Origin: a virus
IMG/VR virus record: IMGVR_UViG_3300006990_000203
Span: 1 to 20,998 of that record
Strand: one strand, 5' to 3'
DNA: 20,998 nt
Shown here: in pieces, positions 574 to 20,310 of the stretch
How positions within the stretch are numbered: position 1 is the first letter of the stretch
Layout: each line of letters opens with the position of its first letter
Position numbers and translations under genes: made by a program
The notes under the pieces: generated by a model
The model's database searches: none
Told to the model about the DNA's origin: nothing
The model's input: only the letters and a program-made list of their open reading frames with translations

Positions 574-1119
574 TTAGATATCGTAAATATTTTTTATTTT
601 TTCAGTAGGAATTGAATTTGTATGTGCAATTAAATTGGAAAGGTCTTCCAGACTTCCAGCATTTTTAAGGTATGATTGGAGAGTGACTTCTTGAAGTACA
701 TAAAGTATCTTACTGAAATCAATTTCATGACGAATTATGAAAGTTTCAGTCGCACCAGAAAAGGCATATGAATGTTTAAAATCTAAATCTACTTTGTGAG
801 TGGGTGTTTTGGACATTCCAAGTATCGGTTCTCGAACAACAAATTCTTCTATTTGTTGAAAAACCTCTTGTTCTACTTTACGCGCTTCTTGTATTTCCAT
901 AAATCCTAGTGCAAAATAGAGAGCGTCGTCCGATTGAGTGCCTTGCTGTTTATTTCTTTTGACAGGATTGCACGAATGTCCTATTTTAAGTTTCTTTTTA
1001 GTACCATCTTGAACATAAAAACAGTATAACCATCTAAATTTAAAGTTTTGGTCTATGGGATGTACTAATTCTTTAGGATTGCACATTAAAAAGTCCAAGG
1101 CGTTGGTTAGATTCTTCAT
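574..1119 (-). CDS. GIY-YIG superfamily (T5orf172-like) protein
   Basis: The 181-residue protein resembles the T5orf172/MUG113 branch of the GIY-YIG fold. A strand LYCFYVQDG (31-39) is followed by KLKIGHS (43-49), a basic helix with R55, and a helix EARKVEQEVF in which E83 sits where the family has its metal-binding glutamate. GIY-YIG proteins cut DNA in repair, homing and restriction, but many T5orf172 proteins are uncharacterised. Residues 95-181 were not recognised. The ATG (1117-1119) overlaps the stop of the bS21 gene by 4 nt, so the two are probably translationally coupled. It is the last gene of the leftward operon. Nuclease activity is inferred, not shown. Confidence 0.55.
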   Translation of the reverse strand: MKNLTNALDFLMCNPKELVHPIDQNFKFRWLYCFYVQDGTKKKLKIGHSCNPVKRNKQQGTQSDDALYFALGFMEIQEARKVEQEVFQQIEEFVVREPILGMSKTPTHKVDLDFKHSYAFSGATETFIIRHEIDFSKILYVLQEVTLQSYLKNAGSLEDLSNLIAHTNSIPTEKIKNIYDI

Positions 1120-1340
1120 CTGCGTAATCGTTTCTTTCTTATTTCGAGTTGTTCTGCCTTCAGTTTGTCCAATTGTCGTGAACGCTTCCTATAATTATTC
1201 GCTGCATTTCTTTTAGCATTGGGTTTTTCATAGTACTGTTTCTCTCTGCATCGTTCTTTGATTTCGGCTCTCATGCACTTCTTTCGGAATATTCTAAGTC
1301 CTTTCTCGAAGCTCATTCCTTTTAGATTAACACTTGGCAT
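1116..1340 (-). CDS. rpsU: Phage-encoded 30S ribosomal protein bS21
   Basis: The 74-residue product starts MPSVNLKGMSFEKGLRIF. It carries the bS21 hallmarks: a short N-terminal strand, a phenylalanine/arginine helix (FRKKC), the central REKQYYEKP block (cellular bS21 has R-R-x-x-F-Y-E-K-P), and a long Arg/Lys-rich C-terminal helix. Length matches cellular bS21 (about 70). I chose the ATG at 1340 because AAGGAG lies about 6 nt upstream and because it gives the family's usual N-terminus; the open frame continues upstream but overlaps the HTH gene. bS21 takes part in translation initiation near the 16S 3' end. Viral bS21 genes are known from aquatic phages and have been proposed to bias host ribosomes toward phage mRNA. 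Identification is by motif reading. Confidence 0.85.
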   Translation of the reverse strand: MPSVNLKGMSFEKGLRIFRKKCMRAEIKERCREKQYYEKPNAKRNAANNYRKRSRQLDKLKAEQLEIRKKRLRR

Positions 1341-1500
1341 CTGTTCTCCTTGTAAATGTCCATCCTCTCTTGCGTAGGTAGTAGACCTTAGCGACAACGC
1401 TGTTCTCACTTCTGTCAAGTTTTATACAGAGTTCGTTGAGTGGCATCTCATTGTAATGCCTTCTTAAAAACTCCAATTGCTCTAGTGTCCATTTCTTCAT
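1327..1500 (-). CDS. Small helix-turn-helix (Myb/SANT-like) DNA-binding protein
   Basis: The 57-residue protein begins MKKWTLEQLEFLRRHY and continues with LNELCIKLDRSENSVVAKVYYLRKRGW. This is the pattern of a Trp-initiated three-helix domain, with helix 3 carrying SENSVVAKV. Small proteins of this type are common in phages as DNA-binding regulators. The start at 1500 is preferred over an in-frame ATG at 1530. The -10 box of its own promoter ends 6 nt before 1500, and the ATG at 1530 lies inside the -35 box. Hence the mRNA is predicted to be leaderless. The 3' end overlaps the bS21 start by 14 nt. Target and role are unknown. Confidence 0.6.
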   Translation of the reverse strand: MKKWTLEQLEFLRRHYNEMPLNELCIKLDRSENSVVAKVYYLRKRGWTFTRRTDAKC

Positions 1501-1506
1501 ACCTGT

Positions 1507-1535
1507 ATTATACTCCAATTTTGATTGCATGTCAA
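1507..1535 (-). promoter_or_regulatory. Sigma70-type promoter for the leftward HTH-bS21-GIY operon
   Basis: Read on the minus strand, TTGACA (1535-1530) and TATAAT (1512-1507) are separated by exactly 17 bp and preceded by AATAGTTC. Both hexamers match consensus. The -10 box is followed by 6 nt and then the ATG at 1500. The -35 box contains the TGA stop of the upstream nuclease gene. Confidence 0.85.
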
Positions 1536-1984
1536 GAACTATTTTTTAGTTGTTGAAAACTCTGCATACGAAAGTTCTTGTTGAGCAGTTGTCCCTTTGT
1601 GTTGCTAAAGTGTTCGAGAAAGTATGTTTTCAATGTTGCACTATCGCAGTAGGCAACCTCCTCTACATTTACTCCGACTATTCTAGCACAGTAAGCACCC
1701 TCCCATGAGTCTACTTTTGTGGAAATCTTCTCTTGCCAAGTCATTCCGTTCTGCATTGCTCGAGTTCCAAAGTTAAAATTAAATTGATTTGTATGAGAAA
1801 TTTTGTACTCGAACTGCTTACCCTCTTCATCAAAGGCATCAGCGTTTTTGTCTCCATCTACAAGTGTATGACCGAGATGATTTGCGAGTGCAAGTTCTCC
1901 GACTCCACCTTTTGTAAGTTCAACGCCTTCAGGAAGTTCCTCGAACGCTTTTCTCAAATGTTCTATTGCTTTTTTATATTTCAT
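1532..1984 (-). CDS. Putative PD-(D/E)XK-fold nuclease
   Basis: The 150-residue product has GGVGELALANHLG (26-38), then GDKNADAFDEEGKQFEYKIS (44-63). E30, D49 and E59-x-K61 follow the E...D...ExK order of restriction-like nucleases. A helix carries the first Glu, a strand the Asp and a second strand the E-x-K. The C-terminal half (TWQEKISTKVDSW and onward) would complete the fold or recognise the target. No exact family was recognised, so cutting activity and substrate are inference. It could instead be an inactive relative or a modification-dependent nuclease used against host or rival DNA. The ATG lies 6 nt after a perfect -10 box with no Shine-Dalgarno sequence, predicting a leaderless transcript. 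Confidence 0.5.
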   Translation of the reverse strand: MKYKKAIEHLRKAFEELPEGVELTKGGVGELALANHLGHTLVDGDKNADAFDEEGKQFEYKISHTNQFNFNFGTRAMQNGMTWQEKISTKVDSWEGAYCARIVGVNVEEVAYCDSATLKTYFLEHFSNTKGQLLNKNFRMQSFQQLKNSS

Positions 1985-1990
1985 ACAGAT

Positions 1991-2019
1991 ATTATACTAA
2001 ATTTAAAAGGTAGTGTCAA
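1991..2019 (-). promoter_or_regulatory. Sigma70-type promoter for the leftward nuclease gene
   Basis: On the minus strand TTGACA (2019-2014) and TATAAT (1996-1991) are 17 bp apart, preceded by AATAGTAC. The ATG of the nuclease gene lies 6 nt past the -10 box. It is back to back with the plus-strand promoter at 2051-2079, so this 100-bp stretch is a divergent promoter region. Confidence 0.85.
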
Positions 2020-2050: not shown

Positions 2051-2079
2051 TTGACAGGAGGTTACAAAGTTGCTATAAT
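2051..2079 (+). promoter_or_regulatory. Sigma70-type promoter, rightward, leaderless
   Basis: TTGACA (2051-2056), 17-bp spacer, TATAAT (2074-2079), then 6 nt to the ATG at 2086. Unlike the other promoters in the window it lacks the upstream TAGTWC extension. Confidence 0.8.
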
Positions 2080-2085
2080 ATGTTT

Positions 2086-2232
2086 ATGATAAATAATGAA
2101 ATAAGTGAAATAATATTTTTAATTATGTGCATAGCTTGTGCATATACCATAGGGAAACAAATTGGAATCCAAACCACGGTAGACTATTTAGAGGAGAAGG
2201 GACTCATAGAGTTTGATGACTCTGAAAAATAG
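2086..2232 (+). CDS. Small membrane protein, 48 residues
   Basis: The ORF encodes a short N-terminus (MINNEISE), one hydrophobic segment of about 16 residues (IIFLIMCIACAYTIG, roughly 9-23) and a polar acidic tail containing TTVDYLEEKGLIEFDD. Small phage proteins with a TM segment and a VDYLEEKGLIE-like tail are common, but their role is unknown to me. Its support as a gene is the perfect promoter whose -10 box ends 6 nt before the ATG. There is no Shine-Dalgarno sequence, so a leaderless mRNA is predicted. The TAG stop (2230-2232) lies within the upstream extension of the next promoter. Confidence 0.6.
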   Translation: MINNEISEIIFLIMCIACAYTIGKQIGIQTTVDYLEEKGLIEFDDSEK

Positions 2233-2235
2233 TTC

Positions 2236-2264
2236 TTGACATCAAGGTTAAAATTTGATATAAT
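2236..2264 (+). promoter_or_regulatory. Sigma70-type promoter for the Hsp20/lysis genes
   Basis: AATAGTTC precedes TTGACA (2236-2241). A 17-bp spacer leads to TATAAT (2259-2264). The expected transcription start near 2271 coincides with the first base of the leader hairpin. The first start codon is 80-90 nt downstream, so unlike its neighbours this promoter makes a real 5' leader. Confidence 0.85.
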
Positions 2265-2270
2265 TATTCT

Positions 2271-2321
2271 GTAAGTCATAGTTTTGACTTACAAATTGGT
2301 GCGTCTACCGAAAGGAGGCGT
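2271..2321 (+). promoter_or_regulatory. Structured 5' leader of the Hsp20 mRNA (two hairpins)
   Basis: Hairpin 1: GTAAGTCA (2271-2278) pairs perfectly with TGACTTAC (2285-2292) around a 6-nt loop, right at the predicted mRNA 5' end. Hairpin 2: GCGTCT-A-CC (2301-2309) pairs with GGAGGCGT (2314-2321). It has one bulged A and G-U pairs, and is closed by a GAAA (GNRA) tetraloop. The second hairpin buries AAGGAGG. A 5'-terminal hairpin often protects mRNA. An RNA thermometer is conceivable because the gene is a heat-shock protein, but the buried AGGAGG is about 25-35 nt from the start codons, too far to be their ribosome site. The structures are seen; the function is inferred. Confidence 0.5.
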
Positions 2322-2355
2322 GAATATTTACTGAAAAGGAATTATGGAGAAAAAA

Positions 2356-2736
2356 ATGAGTATAGATTTAAGTAAATTTTGGCTTGGATTGGATATGCCT
2401 ACACTGCCGTCGTATACGGACACAGCATATCCTAGATATAACTTAATAGCAAGGAACGAGGGCTATCGTATAGAAGTCGCAGTTCCAGGTTGGAAAAAAG
2501 AAGAATTGGAGATAATCTTTGATAACAAAGAACTCCAGATAACGGGTAAAAAAGAACACAAACTAGGTGATGATGAAGATTTCGTTCATCAAGGTCTTAG
2601 TCTAAAATCTTTTGAACGAAGGTTTATTCTAAACGCCGACCTGTTGGTAGATGAGGTACAGCTACAAGACGGGTTACTGACAATCAACTTATCACGAACT
2701 CCAGATTCTAAGAGGAAAATCTTGGAGATAAACTAA
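2356..2736 (+). CDS. Small heat-shock protein Hsp20 (alpha-crystallin family)
   Basis: The 126-residue product has a short N-terminal arm (about 1-30), then the alpha-crystallin domain. YNLIARNEGYRIEVAVPGWKKEELEI-type strands are seen in pieces: YRIEVAVPGW carries the A-x-PG motif, followed by LQITGKKEH and FERRFIL. The C-terminal GLLTINLSR segment matches the family's G-x-L motif, and the tail ends in an I-x-I-like ILEIN. Hsp20 proteins are ATP-independent holdases; phage copies are conserved in marine T4-like phages and may help virion assembly. I prefer the second ATG (2356) because GGAGA sits about 6 nt upstream. An ATG at 2344 is only 3 nt from its AAGGA. The gene follows the structured leader at 2271-2321. 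Confidence 0.88.
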   Translation: MSIDLSKFWLGLDMPTLPSYTDTAYPRYNLIARNEGYRIEVAVPGWKKEELEIIFDNKELQITGKKEHKLGDDEDFVHQGLSLKSFERRFILNADLLVDEVQLQDGLLTINLSRTPDSKRKILEIN

Positions 2737-8638: not shown

Positions 8639-8663
8639 CAGATGGTTTCAAATTTAGTATAAT
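8635..8663 (+). promoter_or_regulatory. Sigma70-type promoter, leaderless
   Basis: AATAGTAC, then TTGACA (8635-8640), 17-bp spacer, TATAAT (8658-8663), 6 nt, and the ATG of the small zinc-ribbon gene at 8670. The -35 box contains the stop codon of the ParB-like gene. Confidence 0.85.
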
Positions 8664-8669
8664 ATACAT

Positions 8670-8828
8670 ATGAAAAATACAGAAACAAACAAAAACAAAA
8701 TTGTAAACATGTGGAACTCAGAAACAAAAGAGTTTGACAAGTATCATTACGGAGAGTGCGAACACTGTGGGACAGCAGTACAGCCAGAGAATGGCGAGTG
8801 TCCTAAGTACAAGTGCTGGATAGCGTAA
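8670..8828 (+). CDS. Small zinc-ribbon-like protein, 52 residues
   Basis: The protein carries CEHC (C30, C33) and CPKYKC (C44, C49), a C-x2-C-x10-C-x4-C arrangement that should bind one zinc ion. It is preceded by a polar, Asn/Lys-rich N-terminus. Such mini zinc ribbons occur in phage DNA- or RNA-binding proteins, but no function is known for this one. Its existence is supported by a perfect promoter ending 6 nt before the ATG (leaderless mRNA, no Shine-Dalgarno). Its TAA overlaps the next ATG (TAATG), implying coupled translation of the following gene. Confidence 0.65.
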   Translation: MKNTETNKNKIVNMWNSETKEFDKYHYGECEHCGTAVQPENGECPKYKCWIA

Positions 8829-13440: not shown

Positions 13441-14379
13441 ATGAATAAGACAGAATACCTAGAATATTGTAATCAAATGTATGCAGAGGGCAATCCTGTA
13501 TTGCCTGACGATGTATACGATAGACTTGTAGAGAACACTGCTCTTGAGGAGCAAGTAGGTCATGCAATGGTTGACGTACGATATTATCACCCTTTCCCAA
13601 TGTATTCACTTCAGAAAGTCTTTGTAGGCGAAGATGAAGAACCAAACTGGGAATCTAACCAACCCACAATTATGACTGCCAAACTGGACGGTGCTGCTGT
13701 GTCTATAACTTATGTAGACGGCATCTTTCATCAGGCTCTTACTCGTGGAAATGGTAGAGCGGGTCTAGATATTACTGATAAAATTAAGTCTTTAGTGCCA
13801 AATGAAATATGGAGCAAAGGTGTCAAACAGATTACTGGAGAAATCGTTGCCCCTAAAACAATACCAAATGCTAGAAATTATGCAAGTGGTGCTTTGAATC
13901 TAAAAGACTTAGAAGAATTTAAATCCCGTGATATTACTTTTGTTGCATACGGAATCCAACCAGCCATCTGTGCTGAGTGGACTGAAGATATGAACATGGT
14001 TGCAGGCATGGGGTTTAACGCTATCACCAAAAGTGATTATCGTGAATTCCCTCAGGACGGTAAAGTTGTACGAGTCGACTCTAATATATATTTTGAAAAA
14101 TTAGGCTACACAGCACACCACCCTAGAGGTAGTTTCGCTTTAAAAACAAGACAGGCTGGAGTAGTTACTCGACTCTTGGACGTTGAATGGAATGTCGGGA
14201 AGTCAGGTGCTGTTTCGCCAGTTGCGATTCTAGAGCCATGTGTGATAGGCGAAGCTACTATTAGTAGAGCTACTTTACATAATATGGCATACATTGAAGC
14301 ATTGGAACTAGAGATTGGTTGTGATGTAGAGGTTATTCGTAGTGGAGAAATAATACCTAGAATTGTAAAGAGAGTATGA
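13441..14379 (+). CDS. ligA: NAD+-dependent DNA ligase, N-terminal half (adenylation + OB)
   Basis: The 312-residue product matches LigA only to the end of the OB domain. Residues about 10-30 (NPVLPDDVYDRL) are a shortened Ia domain with the Y-D pair that helps bind NMN. K81-L-D-G84 is the catalytic KxDG lysine motif. TRGNGRAGLD (101-110), GEI (133-135), NARNYASGAL (143-152) and LDVEWNVGKSGAVSPVAILEP (246-266) are nucleotidyltransferase/OB motifs. The protein stops right after IRSGEIIPRIVKRV, where intact LigA continues into the zinc finger. The missing part is encoded at 19552-20310. A two-gene NAD+ ligase is known from phage T5. The start codon lies 6 nt after the -10 box, so the mRNA is predicted leaderless. 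Confidence 0.9.
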   Translation: MNKTEYLEYCNQMYAEGNPVLPDDVYDRLVENTALEEQVGHAMVDVRYYHPFPMYSLQKVFVGEDEEPNWESNQPTIMTAKLDGAAVSITYVDGIFHQALTRGNGRAGLDITDKIKSLVPNEIWSKGVKQITGEIVAPKTIPNARNYASGALNLKDLEEFKSRDITFVAYGIQPAICAEWTEDMNMVAGMGFNAITKSDYREFPQDGKVVRVDSNIYFEKLGYTAHHPRGSFALKTRQAGVVTRLLDVEWNVGKSGAVSPVAILEPCVIGEATISRATLHNMAYIEALELEIGCDVEVIRSGEIIPRIVKRV

Positions 14380-14912
14380 AAACGATTGATGATTTTTATG
14401 TAATGGGAAACCCACGCCGTAATGGTTTGGGTTTTATTTGGCTTATGGAAAGTCCTAAAGTTAGATGGAATTTTTACCATCCAGACTTAGTACCTCAAAA
14501 AGTCAGTGAATATCATAATCATCAAAATAGTTTTATATCTACAATTTACAAAGGAAGATTTTGTAATAAAAGAGGTAAGATAGTAGAAGGAAACAAGGAT
14601 ATAAAAACTATAAATTGTGTTGAAAATAACTCACAAGGGTTTGAGTCAGAGGTATGGCAGAAGAATGTAGATATTGAACCTAAAGAAGTAGAAAGATATA
14701 TAAGCGGAGACGCTTATTCAATGTCTGCAAAAGAGTATCACATAGCATGGGCAGAAGCGCCCACTATTACTAGACTTGAAGTTTATGGTAATGAAAATGA
14801 GCCTGGACTAGCAGTATATGATAAAGAGCAAGAGATTGTTTGCCCTATAAAAGAGTTTAGATATCCCCATAGCTTATGCTGGGATATAATACGAGAAGTT
14901 TTTGATGCATAA
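14376..14912 (+). CDS. Cupin-like protein A
   Basis: The 178-residue protein shows a cupin-like metal set: H47-N-H49 in SEYHNHQNSF, then FISTIYKG, and H122 in SAKEYHIAW. It is a clear paralog of the protein at 16387. Both have GLGFI, KVRWNFYxPDLxP or QVRWNFYxPDLxP, HNH, and a closing block C-P-x-K-x-F...C-W-x-I-I-R. The iron-site residues fall at the same numbers (47, 49, 122) in both. Cupins of this size act as dioxygenases, isomerases or binding proteins; the substrate here is unknown. It starts with an ATGA overlap on the ligase N half, which ties the cassette to ligase expression. Confidence 0.65.
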   Translation: MKTIDDFYVMGNPRRNGLGFIWLMESPKVRWNFYHPDLVPQKVSEYHNHQNSFISTIYKGRFCNKRGKIVEGNKDIKTINCVENNSQGFESEVWQKNVDIEPKEVERYISGDAYSMSAKEYHIAWAEAPTITRLEVYGNENEPGLAVYDKEQEIVCPIKEFRYPHSLCWDIIREVFDA

Positions 14913-15672
14913 CCCATTTCTAATTAATATAGATGTATGTGGTATATGCAACGAGTCATGTAATTATTGTCCGAGGTCAAGTTCATATCCGAATATAAAA
15001 GAATATATGAGTGTTGAACTTTTTACGAAGTTCATAAATGATTGTAGGGATTATACTGGGACTATTTGTTTCTCAGGCAGAGGCGAAAACAGTTTACATC
15101 CTAAATTTAAAGAACTTGTGGAAATTTTACATTTTAGTGGTAGAAAGTATAAGACTAGAATTTTGACAAACGGCTATAAACTAGAATCAAAGTTCAAGTG
15201 GTTTAATATGTTTGACTCTATTATAATGAACTCTTATACGAGTAAAGAACAGATGGAAGAACGGAAAAAGATAATCCCTCGTGCCACCCATAGATATTGG
15301 GATCAAAGCATGGAGCCATCAGAGTGGGGTGAAACACCTATTCAAGTTCAAAATAGAACTGAGCTATATGAAAGAATAGCAACTGATAGAAGTGAGATAC
15401 GTACTCCTTGTGTACTACCATCTACTAAAGGATGGGTACACCATGACGGGACAATACAGTTATGTTGTAATGACTGGACAAACACAAATGTGTATGGCAA
15501 CATTGCAGACAGTAACTTTTTTGATGTATGGCACACTAGTAAAGAACTAGAGGAAGTAAGAAAGAAATTATTATTTGGAGACAGAAGTAGTAACCCTATA
15601 TGCAAAAATTGTAATAGAAAGGTTACAGCAAGAGAGGAAAAAAGAGTTGCAAGGCTTAGACAAAAGTATTGA
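14905..15672 (+). CDS. Radical SAM/SPASM-type enzyme
   Basis: The 255-residue product has C15-x3-C19-x2-C22 (CNESCNYC), the 4Fe-4S cluster motif that cleaves S-adenosylmethionine. FSGRGENSLHPKF (57-69) replaces the usual G-x-G-E-P-x-x-H-P, and ILTNG is at 86-90. The C-terminal part carries C169, LCCND (C187, C188) and CKNC (C233, C236), with GNI...FFDVWHTSKEL between them. This matches the SPASM/twitch extension that binds extra clusters in peptide- or sugar-modifying radical SAM enzymes. The ATG at 14905 overlaps cupin A by 8 nt and is preferred to a TTG one codon earlier. The substrate is unknown; peptide maturation or nucleotide-sugar chemistry are the main options. Confidence 0.82.
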   Translation: MHNPFLINIDVCGICNESCNYCPRSSSYPNIKEYMSVELFTKFINDCRDYTGTICFSGRGENSLHPKFKELVEILHFSGRKYKTRILTNGYKLESKFKWFNMFDSIIMNSYTSKEQMEERKKIIPRATHRYWDQSMEPSEWGETPIQVQNRTELYERIATDRSEIRTPCVLPSTKGWVHHDGTIQLCCNDWTNTNVYGNIADSNFFDVWHTSKELEEVRKKLLFGDRSSNPICKNCNRKVTAREEKRVARLRQKY

Positions 15673-16390
15673 TACCATTGTAAATGTTAGTGGCGGAGCA
15701 GAATGTTTTGCTGCTTTATGGTGGGCAAAAGAAAAAGGTCTAAATGCCGTTGGCTTACACCTATACAACAATCCACATAACCATCCTGCGAAAGACGCAC
15801 AGTTATACTACGCTCAGAAACAGTGTGAGTTCTTTAAATTCCCATTAGTTGTAGATAGAAACGATTTACCACAAGAGGTTACACTAGCACTAGCAGTCAA
15901 TCAAAATATGTCAGCAGCAGCGACTTTGCTTCTAGGAAACCCAAGAGAGTGGAAATATTTAGTATGGGGCGCAAATGCAGAAGATTCATTTGCGCAACGT
16001 CTACAGTTAAGATTCCCAATAAGAGCATATCTTGCACAGAAGTCATATCAGTTAGACTTGCATGGATGTTCTGCGAAGGAATTGCTATCTGCACCTACTA
16101 ATATCTTTCCTTTTGAGACTCTGTATAAATCAGAAGTCATATCGATGTTAGCAAAAAACATTTGGGACTTTGCAAAACATAATGTCTGGTATTGTTATCC
16201 TCCTGATAGACAGACAGACCTAGTTAAAAAGATAAAGAAAAAAGACAATGGAGGTTACATTCCATGTGGAGAATGTATCAAATGTATAGAATGGAGACAT
16301 GCAGTTCAAGTTGCAAATAAATCAGTATATAAACAACAAGAAGGAACATTTAAAAAACATAAACCAAAACAAGAATGGATAGACGAATGA
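15647..16390 (+). CDS. QueC-like PP-loop ATPase with altered PP-loop
   Basis: The roughly 247-residue protein resembles 7-cyano-7-deazaguanine synthase (QueC). A PP-loop strand TIVNVSGGAE is followed by WWAKEKGLNAVGLHLYN, YAQKQCEFFKFPLVV, YLVWGANAEDSF and FPFETLYKSEVISMLAK. A C183...C207-G-E-C210-I-K-C213 zinc site lies at the C-terminus with R/H/A after it, as in QueC. The PP-loop reads S-G-G-A-E-C rather than S-G-G-x-D-S, so the usual Asp and Ser are changed. Together with the absence of QueD/QueE/DpdA neighbours, this argues against ordinary queuosine synthesis. The start is taken as the TTG at 15647, which has AGAGGA 8 nt upstream; a TTG at 15575 would overlap the radical SAM gene by 98 nt. 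Confidence 0.72.
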   Translation: MQGLDKSIDTIVNVSGGAECFAALWWAKEKGLNAVGLHLYNNPHNHPAKDAQLYYAQKQCEFFKFPLVVDRNDLPQEVTLALAVNQNMSAAATLLLGNPREWKYLVWGANAEDSFAQRLQLRFPIRAYLAQKSYQLDLHGCSAKELLSAPTNIFPFETLYKSEVISMLAKNIWDFAKHNVWYCYPPDRQTDLVKKIKKKDNGGYIPCGECIKCIEWRHAVQVANKSVYKQQEGTFKKHKPKQEWIDE

Positions 16391-16917
16391 TAGATGAACT
16401 AAAGACATGGGGAGTAACCCCAGAGTATAGTGGATTAGGATTTATATTCCTACACGAACCTAACAAACAAGTTAGATGGAACTTCTATTGTCCAGACTTA
16501 ACACCTGTGGAAGTGAACGATTTTCATAACCATAGAATCAAATTTGAATCACAAATAATTAGAGGAGCGCTAATAAATGAAGTAGTGCAATGGAAACCTG
16601 CAAAGGATAGTCCATTACAGATAGTTGAAACTAACTGTGTTAATCCTCACCATAGAAGGAACGTAGTACAAGACAGCGTCAGCATACATCATGATGGCGA
16701 ATACTACCTCCCAGCGGGTGCATACTATACTAGTGAAGCTTATACGTTTCACAGAGTTCATTGCCCTGTACAAACTATTACCAAATTACATATAATTGCG
16801 AATAAAACGAAAGATAACTTGACCATACGGGACAAGAATAAACCGTTTCGTTGTCCTCTAAAGGACTTTAAGAAACCAGAGAAAGAGTGTTGGGAAATTA
16901 TAAGGACATTCTTCTAA
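16387..16917 (+). CDS. Cupin-like protein B (paralog of A)
   Basis: The 176-residue protein aligns over its length with cupin A at 14376. It shares GLGFI near 16-20, QVRWNFYCPDLTP (28-40), H47-N-H49, SQIIRG (55-60), H122 in YTFHRVH, and the closing CPLKDF...CWEIIRTFF. A metal-binding cupin fold is likely. It has an additional HHRRN and SIHHDGEYY segment with more histidines than copy A. The start at 16387 makes an ATGA overlap with the QueC-like gene and brings the metal residues into register with copy A; an ATG at 16375 is also possible. The two copies flank the radical SAM and PP-loop genes. They may handle substrate and product of the same reaction, or two halves of one complex. Confidence 0.65.
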   Translation: MIDELKTWGVTPEYSGLGFIFLHEPNKQVRWNFYCPDLTPVEVNDFHNHRIKFESQIIRGALINEVVQWKPAKDSPLQIVETNCVNPHHRRNVVQDSVSIHHDGEYYLPAGAYYTSEAYTFHRVHCPVQTITKLHIIANKTKDNLTIRDKNKPFRCPLKDFKKPEKECWEIIRTFF

Positions 16918-17297
16918 TGGCAGGTGGAATATACAACGAGACTTATTTCAAAAACTATCCTGAAGAAAAACTGAAGGAAGGAATACTGTATGGTATTGTA
17001 CTGGTGAATCAAACAACATGGGAACGAGAAACTATAAAAGTCGGCATCGCAAAAGGAAGAACATTCAAAGACGCAGTAAAAAGAGCGCGTGGATTTACAA
17101 ACTACGACATCCGAATCCAGAGGATTTGGAGCGGGACGATCTACGATGCGTGGAGGTTCGAGCAAAAATTACACAACCAGTTTCAGAAAGATAGACATAA
17201 AACGGAGCATAAATTTGGAGGGCACACGGAGTGTTTCTCAATGGACAGCAAAATATTGGAGGCGTTTCCAAAGAAAAATGAAGTATTTGGGGATTAG
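16917..17297 (+). CDS. GIY-YIG-like (T5orf172-type) protein
   Basis: The 126-residue protein has GILYGIVLV (22-30) in the place of the GIY/YIG strands and TIKVGIAKGR (39-48), with a basic helix KDAVKRARGF. IYDAWRFEQKLHNQF then has E82 where the family places its metal-binding Glu. This is the same fold class as the protein encoded at 574-1119, although sequence outside the core differs. Such domains cut DNA in homing and repair enzymes. Here it could be a nuclease linked to the modification cassette, a relic homing nuclease that brought the cassette in, or a non-enzymatic adaptor. The ATG at 16917 (TAATG overlap, AAGGA about 10 nt upstream) is preferred to an upstream GTG. Confidence 0.6.
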   Translation: MAGGIYNETYFKNYPEEKLKEGILYGIVLVNQTTWERETIKVGIAKGRTFKDAVKRARGFTNYDIRIQRIWSGTIYDAWRFEQKLHNQFQKDRHKTEHKFGGHTECFSMDSKILEAFPKKNEVFGD

Positions 17298-18624
17298 TGA
17301 AGGGTTTCATAATGCAGCGTATGCTGTAGTCAATGACAACAAGATAGAATTTGCTACAGAAGTAGAGAGAATAACACGAACTAAAAACGATAGTACAATA
17401 CCTAATTGGCACTTTGATGTACTAAAGGAGAGATATAATTATGATAAAACAGTATTTTATGAAAATACTCATTTCAAGAATGCACGACGAGAGATGTATG
17501 GAATGGCAAAAACAACGCCGTGCAGAGAGTATGATATCTCAACTATTCTTCACCATGAAAGTCACTACGCCAGTGCTTATTTTTCTGCTCCTTTCGTACC
17601 TGACAGCACGGTTGTAATAGATGCTATCGGAGAGTTTGATACAGCAAGTATTTGGGTAGATGGTGTAAAGATATGGAATAAAACTTATCCATGGTCACTA
17701 GGATTGTTCTATAGTGCAATTACGAAACGGATAGGACTCAAGCCTAATGAAGATGAATATATAACTATGGGCATGGCAGCTTATGGAGATATTAGAATAG
17801 ACATGACTAAAGATATAGGCATGAATCATCACCGTGGTATCAAGAAAAGAAAATGGTTTTGGCATACACCAGAAGATATAGCCGCGTCAGCACAAGCTCA
17901 GTTAGAATCAGAGCTGCTAGACATATTTGCACTAGCAAGAACGTACGGTCCGAATGTGGCCTATGCTGGTGGAGTTGCACTAAACTGTGTAGCAAATAGC
18001 AAAATAAGACCTATGTTTGATAATATGTGGATATTCCCAAACCCAGGCGATGCAGGGAGTGCGCTAGGTTGCGTACTAGCCCATACAAAAGAAAGAATAG
18101 AATTTAAAGATACTTTCCTAGGACATGATATAACAAGAAGTATCAATCCTAAGTTAGTAGTCGATACACTACTTAAAAGAAAAGTAGTAGGAGTAGCAAA
18201 TGGAAAAGCAGAATTTGGACCTCGGGCGCTTGGTAACAGGAGTTTGCTTGGTGATGTTCGTTTTGATATTAAAGACACAGTCAACAACATTAAACGAAGA
18301 CAGAAGTTTCGTCCTTTTGCTCCCGCAATATTGGAGGAGTTTGTAGATGAATACTTTGAAGGCCCTGCTAATGAATATATGCAGTTTGTTTCAAAAGCAA
18401 AACACGACTACAACAGCGTCTCGCACGTTGATGGAACAGCAAGAGTACAAGTTGTCAAAAGCGATAGTCGATCAGCACTGCGACCCATACTAGAAGAATA
18501 TTACGAGAGAACAGGAGTACCTATGTTATTGAATACAAGTTTGAATATTAAGGGCGAGCCTATAGTAAATACTGTAGATGACGCTAATAGATTTCAACAG
18601 AACTATGGAGTGAGAGTATTTTGA
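17278..18624 (+). CDS. Carbamoyltransferase, NodU/CmcH family
   Basis: The 448-residue product begins MKYLGISEGFHNAAYAVV, the family's usual N-terminus. It carries HHESHYASAYF (92-102, metal-binding histidines), GGVALNCVANSKI (231-243), FGPRALGNRSLLGDVR (313-328), KFRPFAPAI (343-351) and NTSLNIKGEPIV (419-430). These are the conserved blocks of the O-carbamoyltransferases NodU, CmcH and TobZ, which use carbamoyl phosphate and ATP to carbamoylate a hydroxyl. It is shorter than the about 550-residue bacterial enzymes but keeps all core motifs. Marine phages carry such genes, and a phage carbamoyltransferase acting on 5-hydroxymethylcytosine is known, so DNA, a sugar or a peptide are possible acceptors. 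The ATG at 17278 overlaps the GIY-YIG-like gene by 20 nt; the open frame continues upstream without family similarity. Confidence 0.88.
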   Translation: MKYLGISEGFHNAAYAVVNDNKIEFATEVERITRTKNDSTIPNWHFDVLKERYNYDKTVFYENTHFKNARREMYGMAKTTPCREYDISTILHHESHYASAYFSAPFVPDSTVVIDAIGEFDTASIWVDGVKIWNKTYPWSLGLFYSAITKRIGLKPNEDEYITMGMAAYGDIRIDMTKDIGMNHHRGIKKRKWFWHTPEDIAASAQAQLESELLDIFALARTYGPNVAYAGGVALNCVANSKIRPMFDNMWIFPNPGDAGSALGCVLAHTKERIEFKDTFLGHDITRSINPKLVVDTLLKRKVVGVANGKAEFGPRALGNRSLLGDVRFDIKDTVNNIKRRQKFRPFAPAILEEFVDEYFEGPANEYMQFVSKAKHDYNSVSHVDGTARVQVVKSDSRSALRPILEEYYERTGVPMLLNTSLNIKGEPIVNTVDDANRFQQNYGVRVF

Positions 18625-19551: not shown

Positions 19552-20310
19552 ATGAGACAGATTACCCCACCGACAAACTGCCCCGCTTGTACTAGCGAAT
19601 TAGTTTATCGTAATGACCAGTTGTTCTGTGAACACAGTGACTGTTCAGCACAGTGGGATAAGAAAGTTCAGCATTTCGCTTCAACTCTTAAGATAAAAGG
19701 ACTCGGACCTGCGACTCTAGACAAGTTGCAAATCCAAGAATATGAAGAACTATATAAACTTACTGTATCTGAAATACAGGAAAGATTAGGCAGTCAAAGA
19801 TTAGCTGAGAAACTCTTTGTGGAGATTGATAAATCGAAGCAGAGTAAGTTGGTTGATATAATACCAGCTTTCAGCGTACCCCTTATTGGTCGGTCGGCTT
19901 CTCAAAAATTATGCGATTCAATATCAGACATCGAAGATATTAGCGAGAAAAGTTGTACTGAAGCAGGTATTGGACCAAAGGCATCAGCTAATCTACTTCA
20001 CTGGTTACACAGTGAGTACTATCCTTATCAATACAGAACTACACTACCTTTCAACTGGAAAAATAAAATTATTAAGAAAAAAGAGGTCATAGGCGTTGTT
20101 TGTATATCTGGAAAGTTAAAGTCATATCCGACTAAAGCCTTCGCTACTAAAGTTCTAAATGAATATGGATTCACAGTAAAGAGTTCTTTGACTAAAGACT
20201 GTACTCATCTTATAAATGAGTCAGGCGTAGAGTCAAGTAAAACACAGACAGCTCGTGACCGAGGTGTTATTATAATAAGTAATATAAAACATTTAATTGG
20301 AGAAAATTAA
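19552..20310 (+). CDS. ligA: NAD+-dependent DNA ligase, C-terminal half (Zn finger, HhH, BRCT)
   Basis: The 252-residue product begins where the N half stops in ordinary LigA. PTNCPACTSEL with C10, C13, C26 and C31 is the four-Cys zinc finger. HFASTLKIKGLGPATLDKL (41-59) and AFSVPLIGRSASQKL and AGIGPKASANL match the helix-hairpin-helix repeats. A BRCT-like domain follows (about 178-252, VIGVVCISGKL, THLINES, GVIIISNIKHLI). It has no adenylation motif, so it cannot work alone. It is expected to bind DNA and complement the protein at 13441, as the two ligase subunits of phage T5 do. It has its own promoter and a GGAGAGAG ribosome site. Confidence 0.85.
   Translation: MRQITPPTNCPACTSELVYRNDQLFCEHSDCSAQWDKKVQHFASTLKIKGLGPATLDKLQIQEYEELYKLTVSEIQERLGSQRLAEKLFVEIDKSKQSKLVDIIPAFSVPLIGRSASQKLCDSISDIEDISEKSCTEAGIGPKASANLLHWLHSEYYPYQYRTTLPFNWKNKIIKKKEVIGVVCISGKLKSYPTKAFATKVLNEYGFTVKSSLTKDCTHLINESGVESSKTQTARDRGVIIISNIKHLIGEN

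Follow-up and report, generated by a model that had tools for sequence, protein, structure and literature searches.

A ribosomal protein bS21 gene coupled to a small HTH gene in a conserved operon of an uncultured T5-like phage

The bS21 gene and its conserved neighbourhood

A viral bS21 gene lies on the minus strand of the window, that is, the complete 20,998-base IMG/VR virus record analysed here, among co-directional genes that are flanked by a divergent set (Table 1). The sequence-only reading had described a full-length bS21 with a YYEKP core, and this was borne out: the open frame specifies 74 amino acids with the core QYYEKPNAKR, in keeping with the approximately 60-75 amino acids and (F/Y)YEKP core expected of the family, and its product matches Pfam Ribosomal_S21 (PF01165) with an E-value of 2.2e-9 and 37.3 bits, above the gathering cut-off of 27, so that the poor profile match which that reading had named as an argument against itself did not materialise. 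Further matches were obtained to PHROG 21469 'ribosomal protein S21' (E 4.6e-7) and, at the sequence level, to bS21 chains of the PDB (best E 2.4e-5). The AlphaFold model consists of three helices (mean pLDDT 86) and its best 12 PDB fold matches are all bS21 chains of organellar ribosomes, none of them significant for a protein this short. The ribosome-facing core FEK-LRIFRKK-YYEKPN is kept, while in the C-terminal helix NNYRKR replaces KAAAVKR. The ATG at 1340 was preferred to the TTG start of a longer open frame (1116-1418), as the former has a Shine-Dalgarno (SD) site and is conserved. Neither an Rfam scan nor a tRNA scan of the window returned a match, and a narrow viral bS21 pattern gave none in a first genome scan.

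Relatives of the gene were found on 41 IMG/VR viral contigs at identities (best segment) from 100% down to ca. 52%, and a median dN/dS of 0.16 (maximum 0.39; 16 sequences, 110 pairs) indicates purifying selection on it. Just upstream, all 40 contigs that reach that far (41 loci in total) have the same small HTH gene, whose product matches PHROG families of D5-like transcription regulators. Among 20 listed cases in which the two genes adjoin, the HTH stop falls 14 nt inside bS21 in 19 and 13 nt inside in the other (L034); the two genes lie 213 nt apart in L033 and 451 nt apart in L036. Beside the operon a divergent 50-amino-acid gene, Hsp20 and lysozyme follow in constant order wherever the contigs extend. 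As the nuclease gene is present in the nearest relatives only, and a fourth co-directional gene, directly after bS21, in L002 only, HTH-bS21 constitutes the core of the operon; the fourth gene is a candidate for a recent insertion.

The co-directional HTH and nuclease-like genes of the sequence-only reading were both found in place. For the product of the latter no informative family match was obtained with Pfam or PHROG; its AlphaFold model (pLDDT 86, pTM 0.81) matches PvuII endonuclease (Foldseek E 8.5e-6), which shows the nuclease-like label to have been apt, and the invariant residues D43/D45/D49 and E59-x-K61, taken with the predicted fold, fit a PD-(D/E)XK nuclease. Such an enzyme could target host or competing phage DNA.

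Table 1. Coordinates of genes and signals at the bS21 locus (window positions).
Feature	Position	Strand	Basis
Weak GIY-YIG/MUG113-like gene	574..1119	-	ATG overlaps bS21 stop by 4 nt (ATGA); L002 only among 41 loci
Viral bS21 gene, 74 aa	1116..1340	-	Pfam, PHROG, PDB, model, dN/dS
Small HTH (D5-like) protein, 57 aa	1327..1500	-	PHROG phrog_323, E 3.6e-7; stop overlaps bS21 start by 14 nt, overlap conserved
Shine-Dalgarno site AAGGAG of bS21, 5 nt before ATG	1346..1351	-	AGGAG-like site in most relatives
Perfect sigma-70 promoter TTGACA-N17-TATAAT, 6 nt before HTH ATG; predicted leaderless mRNA with HTH and bS21	1507..1535	-	Sequence
PD-(D/E)XK nuclease-like protein, PvuII-like predicted fold	1532..1984	-	Model and invariant residues; nearest relatives only
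Perfect sigma-70 promoter, 6 nt before nuclease ATG, predicted leaderless	1991..2019	-	Sequence
Divergent perfect sigma-70 promoter, 6 nt before ATG 2086, predicted leaderless	2051..2079	+	Sequence
Short divergent protein containing a single hydrophobic stretch; kept next to bS21 operon	2086..2232	+	ORF and locus comparison
Hsp20 gene, conserved neighbour of bS21 operon	2356..2736	+	Pfam/PHROG and locus comparison

The T5-like virus and the origin of its bS21

Synteny with a 105-kb relative (G001, locus L016) spans the whole window, and it is on this relative, not on the window itself, that the T5-type TerL and capsid module was sought and found: the TerL has 48% identity with its counterparts in T5-like phages of Pectobacterium, Serratia and Vibrio, and the fused prohead protease/capsid protein shows 34-40% identity to T5-like capsid genes. 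The window itself harbours a split NAD-dependent DNA ligase, with the adenylation and OB portion encoded at 13441-14379(+) and the BRCT portion at 19552-20310(+), the two genes being 5 kb apart; a split ligase of this kind is a known trait of T5-like phages. The TerL of the relative, coupled with the split ligase of the window, identifies the virus as an uncultured T5-like phage, and the likeness to the Demerecviridae, which is ca. 35% for the prohead protease/capsid protein, extends to the D5-like HTH proteins. The bS21 gene sets it apart, as a tblastn search of the cultured phage records in the collection returned no match to it at E 0.01; a nucleotide search of phage records gave short lysozyme matches only. 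Elsewhere in the window, 14376-18624(+) carries a cluster encoding a radical SAM/SPASM protein, a QueC-like protein, a carbamoyltransferase that is ca. 43-48% identical to marine virus proteins, and two paralogous proteins (14376-14912 and 16375-16917), which represents a possible small-molecule or surface modification cassette.

In a bS21 tree of 67 rows the viral family forms one clade (support 100/100) among gammaproteobacterial sequences and far from the bS21 of pelagiphage HTVC008M. With 66 columns and a bacterial sample limited to Pseudomonadota, this tree speaks for one viral family of probable gammaproteobacterial type and not for a host genus. The earlier suggestion that bS21 phylogeny could name the host was consequently given up, as the clade of the window has a long branch and shares no more than about 40% identity with any cellular bS21 retrieved; what remains is a gammaproteobacterial affinity. 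Identity to gammaproteobacterial bS21 is 57% for the basal members L037 and L040 and about 38% for the clade of the window, and the C-terminal helix was rebuilt within the phage lineage. The viral family profile matches PDB bS21 chains at E 4e-14, these being proteobacterial, as against only 0.12 for that of F. johnsoniae, and the protein is thus not of the Bacteroidetes type. An anti-SD sequestration like that of F. johnsoniae (Tyr54) was rejected because the protein is proteobacterial-type and Y50 of NNYRKR is without an equivalent in the basal members. The changed helix and the fixed coupling to the HTH gene would both suit a diverged bS21 that has become an RNA-binding regulator outside the ribosome, with the HTH protein as a possible partner, and bS21 has been reported in the OLE RNP of Bacillota (PMC12054373); the intact ribosome-facing core and the good profile match argue against such a role, which we regard as very unlikely.

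Among viral ribosomal proteins bS21 occurs most often, and its presence in phages is well known, from about 1,300 genomes and contigs (PMC6375957) and from an entire study of Bacteroidetes phages (Chen et al. 2022, PMC9723584). As the latter lists Hsp20 as a neighbour of bS21 in 127 genomes and lysozyme in 29, contigs of the kind represented by the window have probably been sampled before. In a partial search of the literature we found no paper on bS21 in T5-like phages and none on a conserved leaderless HTH-bS21 operon, and it is the HTH-bS21 operon with its promoter arrangement that is newly recognised here. In the Bacteroidetes phages, as in the present family, bS21 is encoded on the other strand from the genes around it, is strongly conserved within its clade and is assigned the same proposed role; their bS21, however, is Bacteroidetes-like, lies among terminase and capsid genes and is expressed late, whereas that of the window neighbours Hsp20 and lysozyme, at a long distance from the capsid genes and behind host-type promoters. 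On G001 bS21 is found at 62 kb, TerL at 38 kb and the capsid genes at 34-36 kb, and none of TerL, portal, MCP and protease lies within five genes of bS21. The analogy to pelagiphages drawn in the sequence-only reading is sound with regard to function only. HTVC008M is an aquatic lytic phage whose bS21 (AGE60443) is proposed to replace the host protein; incorporation into 30S has been shown for HTVC008M only, its bS21 being found in E. coli 70S ribosomes, with GFP translation then at ca. 5% (PMC6375957). The analogy fails for sequence and lineage: HTVC008M is a pelagimyovirus and its bS21 is very distant (end branch of 7.7 changes per column), unlike the T5-like virus studied here with its gammaproteobacterial affinity and known relatives that share the HTH-bS21 arrangement.

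Promoters, predicted leaderless starts and SD-led genes

The window contains eight perfect TTGACA-N17-TATAAT promoters, as compared to none in 20 dinucleotide shuffles and none in the first 50 kb of T5. Five of the eight are placed exactly 6 nt from an ATG, namely those of the HTH gene at 1500(-), the nuclease gene at 1984(-), the 50-amino-acid gene at 2086(+), a gene start at 8670(+) and the ligase gene at 13441(+). At this spacing the expected transcription start coincides with the A of the start codon, and leaderless mRNAs are thus predicted. Across relatives the HTH promoter (TTGACA/T-N17-TATAAT-N6-ATG, with TTGACT allowed) is present in 19 of 25 loci, has N7 in one and is absent in five, all of which retain bS21. 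The designation of the operon as early-type is plausible because its promoters are perfect host sigma-70 sites, although the bS21 of Bacteroidetes phages is expressed late (PMC9723584); 'early' and 'leaderless' are, for these mRNAs, predictions from promoter sequence. Of the perfect promoters, those on the plus strand at 8658, 12211, 13429 and 19518, spread over a replication/metabolism region, and those in G001 share an ATAT-N-TAT sequence downstream. The Hsp20 mRNA likewise has a perfect promoter followed by a structured leader (2236-2361(+); folding z -3.1), in which a hairpin that begins on the predicted first nucleotide shows compensatory changes at five of its eight pairs among 16 relatives and a second hairpin with a ACCGAAAGG loop follows by eye; this leader might stabilise the mRNA or act as an RNA thermometer.

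The pairing of bS21 with leaderless transcripts to which the sequence-only reading drew attention holds as predicted promoter geometry; bS21 itself, however, is not leaderless but SD-led, and a causal link between the two is a proposal. Along with bS1 and uS2, bS21 is reportedly needed for SD-led mRNAs, and leaderless mRNA is selected by ribosomes devoid of these three proteins (PMC4929434, PMC12186496). Given five predicted leaderless genes in the window, and the fall of in vitro translation to ca. 5% with pelagiphage bS21, it is conceivable that viral bS21 in ribosomes weakens SD-led initiation on host mRNAs while leaderless phage mRNAs, being independent of bS21, continue to be translated. 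We consider such a shut-off improbable to a high degree, as the starts of the phage itself are enriched in SD sites (0.38-0.44 against a background of 0.10-0.14, longest-ORF starts), that of bS21 included, and the pelagiphage result may reflect host mismatch. That bS21 is kept in the five loci without a leaderless-type HTH promoter speaks against the shut-off too and, coupled with the SD enrichment, disfavours an obligate link between bS21 and leaderless mRNA. A related and equally doubtful idea is that the HTH-bS21 pairing is functional, the diverged bS21 altering 30S initiation while selected early genes, including the first of the operon, are leaderless and bS21-independent; if true, a single operon would have built-in phage control over whether ribosomes choose leaderless or SD-led mRNA.

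Proposed role of viral bS21 in the host ribosome

By analogy with the pelagiphage protein, replacement of host bS21 by the viral protein appears to be the best explanation for this gene, and we propose that viral bS21, produced from a strong host-type promoter, probably enters the host 30S subunit and there supports or biases initiation on phage mRNA. Host RNA polymerase would read the strong promoter to give an mRNA that begins at the HTH AUG and carries bS21 as its second cistron, and bS21 would be started from its own Shine-Dalgarno site, probably aided by the ribosome that completes translation of the overlapping HTH gene, so that functional protein is made. Since bS21 is among the last and most loosely held proteins of the 30S subunit, and has been described as loosely bound and exchangeable (PMC9578407), the viral form could exchange into host 30S, beside the 3' end of 16S rRNA, where in the infected cell it would support the initiation of translation on phage mRNAs and may bias it. 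The proposal draws on the profile and PDB matches, the organellar bS21 chains among the non-significant best fold matches, the low dN/dS, the conserved HTH-bS21 order and overlap and the perfect promoters, together with the published work. Entry into the ribosome is not to be assumed, as the protein shares at most ca. 40% identity with cellular bS21 and has a rebuilt C-terminal helix; the GFP translation of only ca. 5% by ribosomes with pelagiphage bS21 (PMC6375957) likewise counts against the proposal.

A preference for phage mRNA may not be required, and the viral protein could simply replace the host supply following a T5-like shut-off of the host. Relatives of T5 destroy the DNA of the host and silence its genes (annotation, T5 gene A1), bS21 is exchangeable and needed in SD-led initiation (PMC9578407, PMC4929434), and purifying selection on the gene accords with this account too; yet ribosomes would outlast the lytic cycle, such that little new bS21 is needed, and a plain substitute would be expected to lie nearer to the host sequence than ca. 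40%. Mere dosage is accordingly held to be unlikely, albeit less so than the other alternatives, and support or bias of initiation on phage mRNA by an incorporated viral bS21 is retained as the preferred reading. The lineage is related to tractable T5-like phages and combines a compact, conserved HTH-bS21 operon with strong host-type promoters, and its predicted leaderless genes beside SD-led ones would offer a clean system in which to ask whether a viral bS21 changes the choice of mRNA by the ribosome.
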